This document shows positions 6,574 through 17,139 of a stretch of DNA of 34,124 nt, piece after piece. Location: IMG/VR virus record IMGVR_UViG_3300032286_000366, positions 1-34,124 of that record; one strand, written 5' to 3'. The translations under genes and the position numbers were made by a program. This DNA is from a virus. The notes under the pieces are model-generated. The model had not been told where the DNA came from, ran no database searches, and worked only from the letters and a program-made list of their open reading frames with translations. Within the stretch, counting starts at the first letter, position 1. Each line of letters starts with the position of its first letter.

Positions 6574-9068
6574 TCAATAATATCCTGAATGTCTATTCCA
6601 ATCGGGTTACCTTGAGTGTCGTTAATTATAGTTGCCTTTCTTTTCTTTTGAATAGCGTCCATGCTCATGCGGATTTGCTCAATCTGCTGCTCTTGCTGCA
6701 ATCTGCGCTCTTCTATCAATTTTTCTTGCTGAGACAATCGGAACTGGGTCTGTTGAGCTTCTAATTCTTGAACCTTTAACAATCCTTGCAGCCTGTTGTT
6801 TTCTGCTGTTATCTCATTCTTCATACTTTGACCTTCAGTCATAGCCTGAACTTTGAGCATATCAACTTGAACTGAATTAGCCTTAATCTGTAATTCTTGT
6901 TGCTTCAACGCCAACTCTTGTTCCGCAACATACTGTTCAAGCTGTGCTTTCTGCATCTGGATATTTCCAGATAATTGCTCACGTTGCATTTTCATCTGCT
7001 GCTCTTGAGCAGATAGCATATTCTTTTCATGGCTGTCTTGAGCTTGGATTTGAGTAGCTTGAATCCTAGCCTGAGCTTCCATTTGAGCAATCTGCATCCT
7101 AGCTTGCATTTCTTGCATAACAGGATCTGGAGGTGGTGGTTGTTTAGCTGCTTCCTCTTTAGCCTTAGAAATCTCACCAATCTGATTAAGTGCTTTGGTG
7201 AAGATGCCATCGAGTTCTTTGCCAGACTTAAATCGCTTGATCACGTTCTGGAACAGTTCGATTGAAAACCCTAAGAGTGGAGGGTATTGCTCAATGAGAG
7301 AACGCATCTGGTTGAAGAACTCTCCCGCAGTTGACATGAGCTGCGCGCCCTCTTGCTGCTCTTGCGCTTGGTCGATGGCAACCATGCTGTCAGAAGCAAT
7401 CTTAATGCGATAATTGATCCTATCGTCATCACGCAAGAACCCAAGGATTTGCTCCTTGTACATTGCAATTTGCATCTCTATAGGTGGCCCCATTGGCATG
7501 GGAGGTGGTGTCATACCCATATCACCTGGTGACATACCCTCTTGACCTTCTGGCATTGGAGGTGCAGGTGGCGGCTCTGGTGGGGGTGGCAACACAGCCT
7601 CAATCATTCTGTCGGCATCGCCAACATCGAAGATTGTCTCTGGGTCAAACTGCTCCGCAATAATCGTGCCAAGTTTTGCAATCGCATCAGAGATGAACTT
7701 GCAGAACATATTCTGTCGGACAACGAGACCAAGGGATGACCACTGCGATTCCAGCCTGTTAGCTGTCGCCGACTTATATTGCTCTGATGTTCCGCGAAGG
7801 AGATCAGACACTTTCAAAGTTTCGTAGAGTTGCTGGAGTGCTGATTGCCTAGCTGCCTGAAGCTGCTGGAGCGCATTAACATATGGAGCAATGTCCATGA
7901 ACTCAACGCCAGATTGCAGACCACCACGGCTCTTATAGGACGGCCAATTCATGACTGGGACCATCTTTAGGTCGCCAATCATAAGCTTTTCAACCTGCAA
8001 GCCTAGTGAGGCATCATATAGCGCATTGGTACGGATTGTCTGAGTGACGGCATGGATACGGGTCGTGAGTCGTTCAATCTCAAGGATTTGATCTTTTACG
8101 TGAGCATAATCAGAAACTGGAATGACACTGTCCGGGTCTGCTGATTGCGCGATTATCGAACAAGGGTAGAAGCCTTCAAAGTCGATAGGTGGCTCTGACT
8201 CATGGATGATGAACTTTTCTGCTGACTTGTGTCCCCAGTAAACCTTTTCGGTTTCCTCGCACCAAATCTCATAAACCTCAGCTTTGCCTTCGTACTTGTC
8301 AGAATCCTTGTTCCAATCCTTTGTTGCTTTGTCTGGAAACGAATCAAAGTGCATCTTGTCGGCAACTTCAGCGCCAAATAACTCTTCTGCTTGTGGTCGT
8401 GTCAGATATGCGCGACGTGAGCGCCATTCTATTTCTGTTTCGTTACGAGCATCGGAGCAGAAATAATCGTTGTATTGAACAACGTCCAAGCAAGCATCAT
8501 CGCTTTCTTTCTTTTCAATCTTAACCTTAGCAAGTATTAGACCACCTGGTCCTTCACGCTGCTCAAGTATTTCCTGCGTAAATGATTGTCCTTGGTCGTC
8601 CAATAGCGTTCCATCCGCCGACGGGAAGAGAGCGATTTCCATCTCTTCTTCCTCAATCTCAGCCTCATACCGTGCCCAAAGAACAGCACGACCAGTAAGA
8701 AGGAACTGCAACGCTGAGTTATATCCAACGTTATCAAATGGAAACTCACAGTCCATTACATACTGGATATTCCGCTCTAGAATAACAGCGGATAGTTCCT
8801 CAAGTGTGCCGCCAGTTCGCTTACGAAGACTTACTTCCGCTTTTGGCGTGGAAGAATAATAAGCAGGTAAGAGAGTATTAACACAATACCACCATACGTT
8901 AAGTCTTCGCTCTGTATCATTTAGAATGCCTACTTGCTTTTGCGCATTGTAAACGCGAATAGATTCTTCAGCCATTTCGATGAACTTTTTGGATCGCTCT
9001 TCCGCACGGGTTATTTCCGTTTTCCAATAAGTAGAAGAGAATCGTTCAACTAATGGCTTAATCTTCAT
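6570..9068 (-). CDS. Portal protein (P22 type)
   Basis: The portal forms the ring through which DNA is packaged and the tail attaches. At 832 residues it is long, in the range of P22-type portals (P22 gp1 is 725). The N-terminal two thirds has the usual portal helices (YWKTEITRAEERSKKFIEMA; NVWWYCVNTLLPAYYSSTPK). A Pro-rich linker (PPPPEPPPAPPMPEGQEG, near residue 495) leads to a long Gln-rich coiled coil (about residues 640-790: QMQIAQMEAQARIQATQIQ and onward), comparable to the C-terminal barrel of P22 portal. The start overlaps the large terminase stop as ATGA. Identification is strong by order and sequence style. Confidence 0.9.
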   Translation of the reverse strand: MKIKPLVERFSSTYWKTEITRAEERSKKFIEMAEESIRVYNAQKQVGILNDTERRLNVWWYCVNTLLPAYYSSTPKAEVSLRKRTGGTLEELSAVILERNIQYVMDCEFPFDNVGYNSALQFLLTGRAVLWARYEAEIEEEEMEIALFPSADGTLLDDQGQSFTQEILEQREGPGGLILAKVKIEKKESDDACLDVVQYNDYFCSDARNETEIEWRSRRAYLTRPQAEELFGAEVADKMHFDSFPDKATKDWNKDSDKYEGKAEVYEIWCEETEKVYWGHKSAEKFIIHESEPPIDFEGFYPCSIIAQSADPDSVIPVSDYAHVKDQILEIERLTTRIHAVTQTIRTNALYDASLGLQVEKLMIGDLKMVPVMNWPSYKSRGGLQSGVEFMDIAPYVNALQQLQAARQSALQQLYETLKVSDLLRGTSEQYKSATANRLESQWSSLGLVVRQNMFCKFISDAIAKLGTIIAEQFDPETIFDVGDADRMIEAVLPPPPEPPPAPPMPEGQEGMSPGDMGMTPPPMPMGPPIEMQIAMYKEQILGFLRDDDRINYRIKIASDSMVAIDQAQEQQEGAQLMSTAGEFFNQMRSLIEQYPPLLGFSIELFQNVIKRFKSGKELDGIFTKALNQIGEISKAKEEAAKQPPPPDPVMQEMQARMQIAQMEAQARIQATQIQAQDSHEKNMLSAQEQQMKMQREQLSGNIQMQKAQLEQYVAEQELALKQQELQIKANSVQVDMLKVQAMTEGQSMKNEITAENNRLQGLLKVQELEAQQTQFRLSQQEKLIEERRLQQEQQIEQIRMSMDAIQKKRKATIINDTQGNPIGIDIQDIIE

Positions 9069-10471
9069 ATTGTAGCTCTACCTCTTTGTGACCGCATTTG
9101 TGCTATATATGCTTGCAGCTTAATCACACCTTTGTTGAATACTTCCGCCGGCTGTTCCCACTTACTATCAACCAACCGTTCTTTGCAGAGGTATCTGAGT
9201 GCATCCGGCAAATGGTCATTGCCTTCTGTATCAACGTCCTCTGGTCTTCGTTTGTCAATTGCCAAACTAGGGAGAGATTCTAATAGTCCTGGGCAGTTGG
9301 TGGTAATATACAACAGAGCCGGCTTGCTCACCAACCGTTGTCTTATCTGCGACCACCCGGATAAACGATCATTATCGGCTTGCCTGAAGTTCGGATGCTT
9401 GTACTTTGCAAACACCGTATGGAACTGGTCTGCGATACTGGGTCCACCTTGATTATTAAATATGGAAGGATCAGCGGCTGCGTGGACGTTTTCGCCGATT
9501 GAGGCTGAGGCGATTCGTTCAGCTTGTTGGATATTATCAATTCCCTTTCCATGCATTTCTCGATAGATGACGATTGCTCCTTTTGGAAAAGGGACTTCAT
9601 TACCCTTATCATCCCTTCCAGAACTAACAGCGCCCCAGACAGCAGCAAAAGGGCTCCTGAAACCCCAATCATACCCAAGATAGCGAGGCCAGTGCTTAGG
9701 TACATTAAAAGGTGGGATAATGTGCCGCGAACTAAACTCTGGAAAGTAGCTGCCTTCATGAATCTCAAAGTCTCCTTCTAGCCATGCGCGTACTAACTCA
9801 GGACTACCAACCATGTGCAATCTGTTGATATATTCAGGGTCTTGAGCCAATAGAATCTTGTTGTCTCCAATTCGGCTGGGGATATAAATGTAGTCAAACG
9901 ATGAGCCGTTAGGCAGTTCTTTGGTAAGTATCTTCTTGCCGTTTGGTGCTGGTCTGATAAACAGCTCTTTAAGCCAGTGATGACCTACGCCGCCAGGGTT
10001 AAAGGTTAAAATAACCTGCCCACCGCCTCTACCTCGCAATGCTCCAAACAGTTTCCAAACTGGAGAAGGATTTGCATAGTTGCCCACTTCTTCCACAGCC
10101 GCATGACTCAAATTTTGCCCTTGAAATTTTTCTGCATCGCTATCGTCAGCTAATGGACGAAATCGCAACCGTGCGCCATTAGGAAACGTAAACTGCTTCT
10201 TCTGGTCCTGCCAATGAGCGCGAAGTGGCAGGTAAATCTGCTTGGCTCGCTCAATCAAGTCATCTGCTTGGGGTAACTCTTTACGAAAGAATATAGCGTT
10301 AAAAGCCTCACCAAGCTGCTCTTGGTTGATAGCGAACTTGCCCAACACTCCATCGGTCTTACCGCCGCCACGAGCACCACCAAATCCAATTAGTGTGATA
10401 GGACAATGTATAAGCATCTCCTGAGATCCAGGTTGAGGTGCCCATACTATGCGCTCAGTAACTTCATCCAT
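9065..10471 (-). CDS. terL: Terminase large subunit
   Basis: The ATPase and nuclease that packages DNA into the prohead. From the chosen start (468 residues) it shows a Walker A GGARGGGKT (about residues 33-41), a Walker B-like AAVEEVGN, a coupling segment ILTFNPGG, and a C-terminal RNase H-type nuclease with conserved acids in YLGYDWGFRSPFAAV, AAADPSIFNN and DHLPDALRYL. The frame is open for 15 further codons upstream, but ATG at 10471 overlaps the TAA of the preceding gene (TAATG), the same coupling used by its neighbours, so that start is preferred. The portal gene begins inside its stop codon. Confidence 0.96.
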   Translation of the reverse strand: MDEVTERIVWAPQPGSQEMLIHCPITLIGFGGARGGGKTDGVLGKFAINQEQLGEAFNAIFFRKELPQADDLIERAKQIYLPLRAHWQDQKKQFTFPNGARLRFRPLADDSDAEKFQGQNLSHAAVEEVGNYANPSPVWKLFGALRGRGGGQVILTFNPGGVGHHWLKELFIRPAPNGKKILTKELPNGSSFDYIYIPSRIGDNKILLAQDPEYINRLHMVGSPELVRAWLEGDFEIHEGSYFPEFSSRHIIPPFNVPKHWPRYLGYDWGFRSPFAAVWGAVSSGRDDKGNEVPFPKGAIVIYREMHGKGIDNIQQAERIASASIGENVHAAADPSIFNNQGGPSIADQFHTVFAKYKHPNFRQADNDRLSGWSQIRQRLVSKPALLYITTNCPGLLESLPSLAIDKRRPEDVDTEGNDHLPDALRYLCKERLVDSKWEQPAEVFNKGVIKLQAYIAQMRSQRGRATI

Positions 10472-10677
10472 TACAAATGCTTTAAACTCTGACAATAGAC
10501 CCAGAAGTCTTCCCACGTAGCTAAATTCTGATGCGGCTCTGACTTATCGCCACACTCGCTACACTTAACTCGCTGGTTCTTAGGCATATCGGTATCAAAC
10601 TCTTCAACAGCGCCACAATGCGGACACTTCCAGAAGTTGTCGTCAGTCTCATCCTTCATGCGATGCTCAATGCCCAT
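10471..10677 (-). CDS. Small zinc-ribbon protein upstream of terL
   Basis: A 68-residue protein with two Cys pairs, CPHC (residues 18-21) and CSEC (about 39-42), spaced as in a zinc ribbon. Nothing else in it suggests catalysis. It could bind nucleic acid or assist terminase. It is coupled on both sides: its ATG overlaps the previous TAA, and terL starts inside its own stop codon. The last codons of the upstream gene (CCGGAGGAA) provide its ribosome site. Confidence 0.75.
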   Translation of the reverse strand: MGIEHRMKDETDDNFWKCPHCGAVEEFDTDMPKNQRVKCSECGDKSEPHQNLATWEDFWVYCQSLKHL

Positions 10678-12990: not shown

Positions 12991-13083
12991 ACATCTTTTG
13001 TTGCACACTGTCATCATAGTATGTATACTGTGATTATTGAGTGAGTTATTAAGACTTACTTAATTACTGGAGACACGACTATG
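12991..13083 (+). repeat. Promoter-leader module, copy A
   Basis: This stretch and 13825-13914 are diverged copies of the same module: CATCTTTT, TTGCAC, TGTCATCATA, TATGTAT, TTATTGAGTGAG and the leader GGAGACACGACTATG occur in the same order with near-identical spacing. Each drives a different small early gene. Confidence 0.85.
13001..13029 (+). promoter_or_regulatory. Early sigma70 promoter A
   Basis: TTGCAC (13001-13006), a 17-base spacer and TATACT (13024-13029). AGTAT-GT-ATACT, an inverted repeat, covers the -10 region and could be an operator. Start of RNA is expected near 13036, about 45 bases before the first early gene. Confidence 0.75.
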
Positions 13084-13342: not shown

Positions 13343-13489
13343 ATGAACTTAATTGCTTACATCATCATGAAAGTTACGGGCTACAGATTTCCGAAAGAGG
13401 GCTTGTTCGGCCGTGACACTACAAGCCGCGAAATCATTCAATGGATCGGAATCAACCCTGTATTCCTCAACCTCAGATTTTTTGAATAA
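13343..13489 (+). CDS. Early small protein (48 residues) upstream of the ribozyme
   Basis: A short gene with an exact GGAGACACGACT leader before ATG 13343. The product begins MNLIAYIIMKVTGYRFPKEG and ends NPVFLNLRFFE. It is hydrophobic at the N-terminus and has several aromatic residues; no family is recognised. The shared leader is the main reason to accept it as real. Its TAA stop (13487-13489) runs into the hammerhead ribozyme: the final A is a paired base of stem II, so terminating ribosomes should interfere with ribozyme folding. Confidence 0.7.
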   Translation: MNLIAYIIMKVTGYRFPKEGLFGRDTTSREIIQWIGINPVFLNLRFFE

Positions 13490-13540
13490 GTCGAAACGGT
13501 CGAAAGACCGTCTAGCCGTTATGCGGCTACTGATGAGACT
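13489..13540 (+). ncRNA. Type II hammerhead self-cleaving ribozyme
   Basis: All conserved hammerhead elements are present in order. Stem II is open: AGTC (13489-13492) pairs with GACT (13537-13540). Then comes G12-A13-A14 (13493-13495). Stem III is ACGGTC (13496-13501), loop GAAA, GACCGT (13506-13511), including the A15.1-U16.1 pair. The cleavage triplet is GUC (13510-13512), with cleavage after C13512. Stem I is TAGCCG (13513-13518), loop TTATG, CGGCTA (13524-13529). The core CUGAUGA is 13530-13536. Every invariant base matches, and all 16 base pairs are Watson-Crick. The order (open stem II) makes it type II, known from bacterial and phage DNA. Cleavage would leave the upstream mRNA capped by the stem III hairpin and the downstream mRNA starting with the stem I hairpin and a 5'-OH. 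Confidence 0.93.
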
Positions 13541-13557
13541 AAATGGAGACTAAGACT

Positions 13558-13818
13558 ATGATAGCTCGATTAAGCACTAAAAAAACCAGCTTAAAATCGT
13601 GGATACTTCATTGGGTAGGATGTAGCAGTTCACCTATAGGAGAGATCCTTGAGGGTCCGTGGCATCGTGTAACAGTACACCCAACGTTTACAGGACAACC
13701 AATAGAACAAGGCGAGTTACTTGGAAGATTTGAAGTCTATGACGTGCGGCGTGAGAAGGTTATCGGTCACGCCAATACGTTGAAACAATGTAAAGAATTA
13801 TTTGTTGCTTGCCTGTAA
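13558..13818 (+). CDS. Early protein of unknown function downstream of the ribozyme
   Basis: An 86-residue product starting MIARLSTKKTSLKSWILHWV. The ATG at 13558 follows GGAGACTAAGACT, a variant of the repeated leader; an in-frame ATG five codons earlier would destroy that spacing. The C-terminal half (LGRFEVYDVRREKVIGHANT) looks like a small beta protein; the N-terminal part is basic with Trp. No family is recognised. Its mRNA would be the 3' product of hammerhead cleavage, with a 5' hairpin 29 bases upstream of the start codon. Confidence 0.65.
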   Translation: MIARLSTKKTSLKSWILHWVGCSSSPIGEILEGPWHRVTVHPTFTGQPIEQGELLGRFEVYDVRREKVIGHANTLKQCKELFVACL

Positions 13819-13824
13819 CTTTCT

Positions 13825-13914
13825 GCATCTTTTACTTGCACTATGTCATCATAATATGTATGCTTTAGTTATTGAGTGAGTGATAAACACTTACCAGTTG
13901 GAGACACGACTATG
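13825..13914 (+). repeat. Promoter-leader module, copy B
   Basis: Diverged second copy of the module at 12991-13083, with the same order of elements. It ends in an exact GGAGACACGACTATG leader. The separation of the copies is about 830 bp, with three small genes between. Confidence 0.85.
13836..13864 (+). promoter_or_regulatory. Early sigma70 promoter B
   Basis: TTGCAC (13836-13841), 17-base spacer, TATGCT (13859-13864), matching promoter A except in the -10 box, where the inverted repeat over the -10 is lost. This implies similar strength but possibly different repressor control. Confidence 0.7.
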
Positions 13915-16766: not shown

Positions 16767-16767
16767 C

Positions 16768-16826
16768 TGTCCACTTTGGACACATACCCTGTCCACTTTG
16801 GACACTTCAAATGACAATTTGGACAC
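16768..16826. promoter_or_regulatory. Palindromic TGTCC-N5-GGACA sites, candidate origin or operator
   Basis: TGTCCACTTTGGACAC at 16768-16783 and again at 16790-16805 are exact copies 22 bases apart, with a degraded third (TGACAATTTGGACAC, 16812-16826) in phase. The 22-base period is two helical turns, so bound dimers would line up on one face. The third copy lies inside the last codons of the winged-helix gene. Together with the 13-base repeats this looks like a replication origin or an autoregulatory site for the adjacent DNA-binding protein. Confidence 0.6.
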
Positions 16827-17139
16827 TTTGAGAAGCTAATTTAGTCTCTACATTAGCCAAAAACGAATCCGCAATTTTTAGTGTTCTAGCTCTACCTTTA
16901 TTTCCAGTATTAGCAGTGATTATTCCTTCAGCAATAGAACGATCTATTACTCTACGCATAGTTCTATATGGCAATCGTAACTCCTCACCTATTTGCTCTA
17001 CCGAAGCAAAACACTCGTTACCACCTCTGTTCCATTTCTCGATGTAGGCAATTAAAGCCGCTTGGTGGTAACTTAGTCCGAGATCCAAATAAGCATGAAA
17101 GAGTGGCACAAATGTGCCGTGTTGTGGTAATTTGGTCAT
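16807..17139 (-). CDS. Winged-helix DNA-binding protein, replication-initiator-like
   Basis: A 110-residue protein with a helix-turn-helix of the kind found at the N-terminus of phage and plasmid replication initiators: LGLSYHQAALIAYIEKWNRG, then ECFASVEQIGEELRLPYRTM and RRVIDRSIAEGIITANTG (about residues 17-80). It lacks any primase or loader domain, so it may be only the DNA-binding part of an initiator, or a repressor. It is on the opposite strand to its early neighbours, and its last codons carry one of the palindromic sites. AAAAGGAAAAG precedes the ATG. Confidence 0.65.
   Translation of the reverse strand: MTKLPQHGTFVPLFHAYLDLGLSYHQAALIAYIEKWNRGGNECFASVEQIGEELRLPYRTMRRVIDRSIAEGIITANTGNKGRARTLKIADSFLANVETKLASQSVQIVI

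Follow-up and report, generated by a model that had tools for sequence, protein, structure and literature searches.

The 34,124-nt stretch of viral DNA analysed here (the window) carries on its plus strand, at positions 13489–13540, a compact type II hammerhead ribozyme without a pseudoknot. The ribozyme is located between the stop codon of one small gene and the ribosome-binding site of the next, where it is predicted to split a polycistronic mRNA after C13512, a reading of the sequence to which we assign a probability of roughly 0.8. Its identity as a type II hammerhead is confirmed at the level of sequence, and it probably cuts the viral message between C13512 and U13513. This kind of ribozyme is already known, including its occurrence in prophage operons, its arrays and the idea that it cuts mRNA to gene length (Perreault et al. 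2011, PMC3088659), and the window element adds one member.

All hammerhead parts are present at the positions given by a first-pass annotation of this DNA, with direct reading and the minimum-free-energy fold in agreement. From 5′ to 3′, the plus-strand DNA of 13489–13540 reads AGTC, GAA, ACGGTC-GAAA-GACCGT, C, TAGCCG-TTATG-CGGCTA, CTGATGA and GACT. In the RNA, the 5′ half of stem II (AGUC, 13489–13492) pairs with the 3′ half (GACU, 13537–13540, assigned by direct reading and fold) and is followed by the core nucleotides G12, A13 and A14 (GAA, 13493–13495, read directly). The stem III hairpin ACGGUC-GAAA-GACCGU (13496–13511) comprises arms of 6 bp (13496–13501 and 13506–13511), which hold the A15.1–U16.1 pair, and a GAAA loop (13502–13505). 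The predicted cut, placed by the hammerhead consensus, falls between C17 (13512) and nucleotide 1.1 (U13513), the first base of the stem I hairpin UAGCCG-UUAUG-CGGCUA (13513–13529). The 6-bp arms of this hairpin (13513–13518 and 13524–13529) enclose the loop UUAUG, which conforms to UNANG, and the second core segment, CUGAUGA (C3–A9, 13530–13536), is again read directly. The circular order is complete for a type II hammerhead, with an open stem II, closed hairpins for stems III and I, a GUC triplet and a full core; the invariant positions C3, U4, G5, A6, N7, G8 and A9, G12, A13 and A14, the A15.1–U16.1 pair and H17 are all found by reading and by descriptor. Stems I and III are closed by loops and stem II opens to the flanks, with no core-adjacent mispairs by reading or fold.

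The hammerhead structure is the minimum-free-energy fold of the 52 nt (–19.7 kcal/mol, z –3.65), and stems I and III are each predicted to be stable hairpins by themselves. Stem II comprises only 4 bp, and its predicted weight against upstream pairing is 0.70 in a transcript of 66 nt, 0.07 in 121 nt and ~0 in 218 nt, the values for longer transcripts coming from a program that leaves out tertiary contacts and ribosomes.

Screened with a descriptor that covers each of the three hammerhead types, the window contains a single copy (13489–13540); the same descriptor returns one relaxed match from 60 dinucleotide-shuffled windows, and none with comparable stems. The first-pass annotation had pointed to the Rfam covariance models as a check: RF02276 (Hammerhead_II) aligns the element end to end with 29.3 bits (E 4.4e-4 in 401 nt), but the cut-off of this model is 37 bits, and Rfam at gathering score gives no match in the window. 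We attribute the low score to membership of the compact subclass described below; the RF02276 cut-off is passed by 1 of 15 tested loci with compact hammerheads. Applied to 50 records with related terminases, RF02276 recovered relative L157 and missed relative L146, and a dedicated covariance model was therefore built. Trained on 60 compact hammerheads from other loci, with the phage family of the window excluded, it matches 13488–13541 with 72.6 bits (E 3e-18), in support of the type II assignment. Searches of isolated phages by blastn, with the region and with the ribozyme, returned nothing at E 1e-5 and chance-level matches only at E 3.

The gene set of the window record, classed as viral by IMG/VR conventions, includes terminase, portal, major head and Erf-like annealing proteins. 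Its terminase (9065–10516) defines a large uncultured phage family with 315 relatives in viral contigs, 80 of which were examined, and the best isolated-phage matches of its portal protein lie below 30% identity (Myxococcus, Bradyrhizobium, Stenotrophomonas, Rhizobium and others). The same element is carried by L146 (713–766, minus strand) and L157 (6262–6315, minus strand), which score 69.7 and 63.0 bits, respectively, with the family-excluding model; among 82 family loci, this model finds no match beyond the window and these two. Compensatory changes in related phages, which the first-pass annotation had said to look for, are indeed observed between the three elements in stems I and III, and the core is identical. 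It is thus extremely improbable that the region comprises two ordinary mRNA hairpins whose likeness to a hammerhead is fortuitous or that of a dead relic. Such hairpins would account for the stability of stems I and III alone and for an Rfam score under the cut-off, but not for a core that stays intact in three family members despite changed stems, nor for the E-value from an independent model when nothing as good arises in 60 shuffles.

A scan of viral contigs for the stem II and core pattern yielded at least 120 stretches with at least 168 distinct type II hammerheads, including that of the window. The compact form makes up about one third of the 168 matches listed. One group among these matches has a hairpin I of 22–24 nt and usually a stem II of 3 bp (81 of 97), and its loop I and tail are complementary over at least 4 bp in 94% of cases, versus 34% with other tails; this group corresponds to the hammerheads with a pseudoknot in Perreault et al. 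The compact group among the matches listed exhibits a 17-nt hairpin I, a 4-bp stem II (54 of 56) and an A directly 5′ of stem II (53 of 56), as well as UNANG pentaloops in 38 of the 55 members of a set unselected for loop. Here, loop–tail pairing of at least 4 bp shows no excess (7% versus 13% with other tails). Tetraloops of the GNRA or UNCG type cap stem III in about half of compact elements (54 of 112). The window element has the 17-nt hairpin I, the UNANG loop, the 4-bp stem II and the A at –1. A pseudoknot between loop I and the 3′ tail was considered for it and rejected, with at most 3 bp available where at least 4 are needed.

Additional pattern scans extended the compact form to more viral contigs and to contigs of bacterial genomes, the latter mostly metagenome-assembled; one of the viral scans took GACU-type stem II only and therefore provides no total count. 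Stems I and III are formed in each of the 55 distinct raw matches, even though the pattern made no such demand. Covariation across the 60 compact sequences is strong, with pairing kept in 99.7% of pair cells and 291 changes on both sides of a pair, stem formation being an entry condition of this set. We retain the compact, pseudoknot-free subclass defined here as a lead. It was not described in the literature searched, which took in subscription papers in part and the main text of the 2011 paper. The compact form also shows that current database thresholds undercount phage hammerheads, and the new covariance model finds them.

The window element resembles the type II (GSC-order) hammerheads of PMC3088659 and RF02276 in its permutation, its invariant core, the 10.1–11.1 and 15.1–16.1 pairs and the A 5′ of stem II, and it is likewise located between genes of phage operons (PMC3088659). 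It is distinct from them in its 17-nt UNANG hairpin I, rather than one of 22–24 nt, and its 4-bp stem II, rather than one of about 3 bp; it also has no loop I–3′ tail pseudoknot and lies under the Rfam gathering score. Perreault et al. already note that many hammerheads have no pseudoknot; in vitro self-cleavage has been observed for type II hammerheads built in this way, and a triple arrangement from A. tumefaciens cleaves in E. coli (PMC3088659). The first-pass annotation could match the genomic context to no described case, a view that does not hold, as hammerheads flank genes in prophage operons and sit in phage intergenic regions (PMC3088659). In prophage arrays at ardA and hypothetical genes (Agrobacterium, Azorhizobium, C. 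scindens), ribozymes also lie between small accessory genes, and their proposed function is to divide long phage transcripts into mRNAs of gene length (PMC3088659); these arrays contain several clustered ribozymes, whereas the window genome has one. The HHphage ribozyme of haloviruses HF1 and HF2 is similarly placed just 5′ of the start codon of an early phage gene, but is a hammerhead variant of archaeal viruses, 13 nt from a helicase start codon (PMC3088659), whereas the window element has a canonical core and orphan-ORF neighbours. The theta ribozymes of gut phages (PMC10879173) are likewise small self-cleaving ribozymes in phage genomes, but are HDV-like, an unrelated class, and are tied to tRNA-based recoding rather than to a gene junction. 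Hammerheads are enriched near Mu-like phage genes and other ribozymes, for a reason given as unknown (PMC10085705, 2023). On what hammerheads do for phages and prophages, a question left open in PMC3088659 and PMC10085705, the recurring stop-to-ribosome-binding-site placement and the hairpins that the type II layout alone leaves on both products offer two specific, testable ideas.

Upstream of the ribozyme lies a 48-aa ORF (13343–13489, plus strand; ortholog in L009), and the final base of its UAA stop codon (13487–13489) is the first A of stem II. The downstream ORF of 86 aa (13558–13818, plus strand; ortholog in L002) begins with the AUG at 13558 and is preceded by a Shine-Dalgarno-like GGAG (13545–13548, plus strand, by reading; repeated leader GGAGACACGACTATG). 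Neither ORF belongs to a Pfam or PHROG family. The leader GGAGACACGACTATG is repeated at 13069, 13331, 13900 and 14166, before four early ORFs, and is common to L002 and L009; it is possibly a site for gene-cassette shuffling. A 64-nt promoter-like repeat (TTGCAC-17 nt-TATACT) is present at 12996–13059 (plus strand), upstream of the ribozyme and also in L002 and L009, and an 81% identical copy at 13831–13894 (plus strand) follows the 86-aa gene. The duplicated promoter behind which the ribozyme was first placed therefore exists as a repeat in two copies, but these flank the site and only one is in front. In a sigma-70 consensus scan of the region, the number of sites was not above that in shuffles, and the early character of the transcript is something that we infer.

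Abutment on a stop codon is widespread among type II hammerheads: in the 238 with a readable upstream ORF, 170 (71%) have the upstream stop ending –3 to +2 nt from the ribozyme start, versus 5.2% of random positions in the same contigs, with offsets that are approximate since ORFs were called by a simple script. The next AUG preceded by a Shine-Dalgarno sequence follows at a median of 20–24 nt downstream of the ribozyme, and ordinary same-strand gaps in these contigs are broadly distributed (quartiles 1, 31 and 98 nt, from a simple ORF caller). We keep this putative abutment rule as a lead; it could reflect genome economy. The main text of PMC3088659 makes no mention of stop codons, and the abutment is undescribed in the literature searched, of which subscription papers were partly covered.

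A ribosome that terminates on a stop codon occupies about ten further bases. With the ribozyme starting at this codon, termination on the upstream gene would mask stem II together with some of the core, and translation could thus gate the cut. Ribosomes terminating upstream would then hold the ribozyme open, so that mainly transcripts with an untranslated upstream gene are cut and translation is coupled to splitting. The shared UAA base in the window, the 71% of hammerheads abutting a stop against 5% of random positions, and the breadth of ordinary gaps are all consistent with such gating. However, in compact phage genomes any intergenic element may be squeezed against a stop codon, hammerheads fold and cut fast, and the gap survey relied on a simple ORF caller, such that we consider gating by translation a tentative and weaker proposal.

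Splitting of the early polycistronic mRNA into segments with separate lifetimes appears the most likely role. By established hammerhead chemistry, the upstream piece would end in a cyclic phosphate and the downstream piece begin with a 5′-OH, and only the type II layout places closed hairpins on both new ends, as types I and III leave one bare strand. Self-cleavage after C13512 would take place while the RNA is being transcribed or shortly thereafter. The upstream product would contain the 69- and 48-aa ORFs and end 23 nt past the stop codon in the stable stem III hairpin with a 2′,3′-cyclic phosphate, and the downstream product would start with a 5′-OH and the stem I hairpin, 45 nt ahead of the AUG. 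Terminal hairpins of this type would be expected to slow 3′ exonucleases as well as 5′-end-dependent decay, and with one on each end the likely benefit would therefore be mRNA segments with separate, protected lifetimes. Release of the ribosome-binding site by cleavage was also considered and rejected: predicted accessibility of the Shine-Dalgarno sequence does not rise after the cut, and a translational switch is therefore not evident. A broader generalization, in which phages carry two subclasses and the compact one, largely invisible to Rfam, is a stop-codon-built and ribosome-gated mRNA splitter that leaves two protective hairpins, we regard as doubtful.

In the phage family, a scan of whole records finds the element in 3 of about 14 records of at least 29 kb, a count that leaves out one further weak match of 12.8 bits. 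L009 keeps the upstream 48-aa gene (87.5% aa and 83% DNA identity) followed by a plain spacer, and L002 keeps the downstream 86-aa gene (73% aa identity) preceded by a different gene. Both are without the whole ribozyme, and neither shows the preserved genes with broken core bases that the first-pass annotation had named as counter-evidence. Since either neighbour can be kept without it, the ribozyme is an optional cassette of a mosaic region of small genes and not a conserved fixture, and since most relatives are without the element, it is dispensable for the family. The genes that flank it differ among the window, L146 and L157. Across loci, flanking proteins are mostly orphans, the named ones (the antirestriction proteins ArdA and ArdC, AAA ATPases, DUF932, NinX and RusA) being accessory or early-type. 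The families listed (in one list 25 of 46) include no virion proteins next to hammerheads, and a common function of the flanking genes was looked for across loci and not found.

This sporadic distribution, the varying neighbours and their lack of a shared function would also be expected if the ribozyme, although active, were a selfish or neutral RNA cassette that is carried along when gene cassettes recombine at the repeated leaders and brings the phage little or no benefit. Such an explanation seems to us rather unlikely, as compensatory changes maintain the stems, the core is kept and the orientation and stop-to-Shine-Dalgarno spacing recur. Use is further suggested by ribozyme–gene–ribozyme repeats and by arrays in which one locus holds as many as nine ribozymes.

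Hammerheads are also able to ligate, and circular RNA is their role in viroids and retrozymes (PMC4918200), raising the question of whether the RNA is cut and ligated, or circularized, instead of being simply split. Perreault et al. detected neither spliced nor circular products when they looked for them (PMC3088659). With a single ribozyme, the window would define no circle of a given length, and we consider this outcome very unlikely here.

Elsewhere, 5–9 type II hammerheads on one strand are observed between successive small genes within ~14 kb of phage DNA (L365, L221, L274, L267, L222 and L198). A further ten loci (L314, L315, L316, L317, L318, L319, L321, L330, L331 and L336), mostly Gastranaerophilales and rumen or gut metagenome contigs, have repeated units of a compact hammerhead, a small gene (87–102 aa) and a second hammerhead, with 292–329 nt between the ribozymes. 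Most of their small proteins appear mutually related by eye, and the units would be predicted to release single-gene mRNAs. Within the window itself, we note three near-copies of CACTTTGGACAC at 16767–16828 with a spacing of 21–22 nt, two of them within the palindrome TGTCCACTTTGGACA, which adjoin a leftward ORF (16807–17139) and look like an operator or iteron array.
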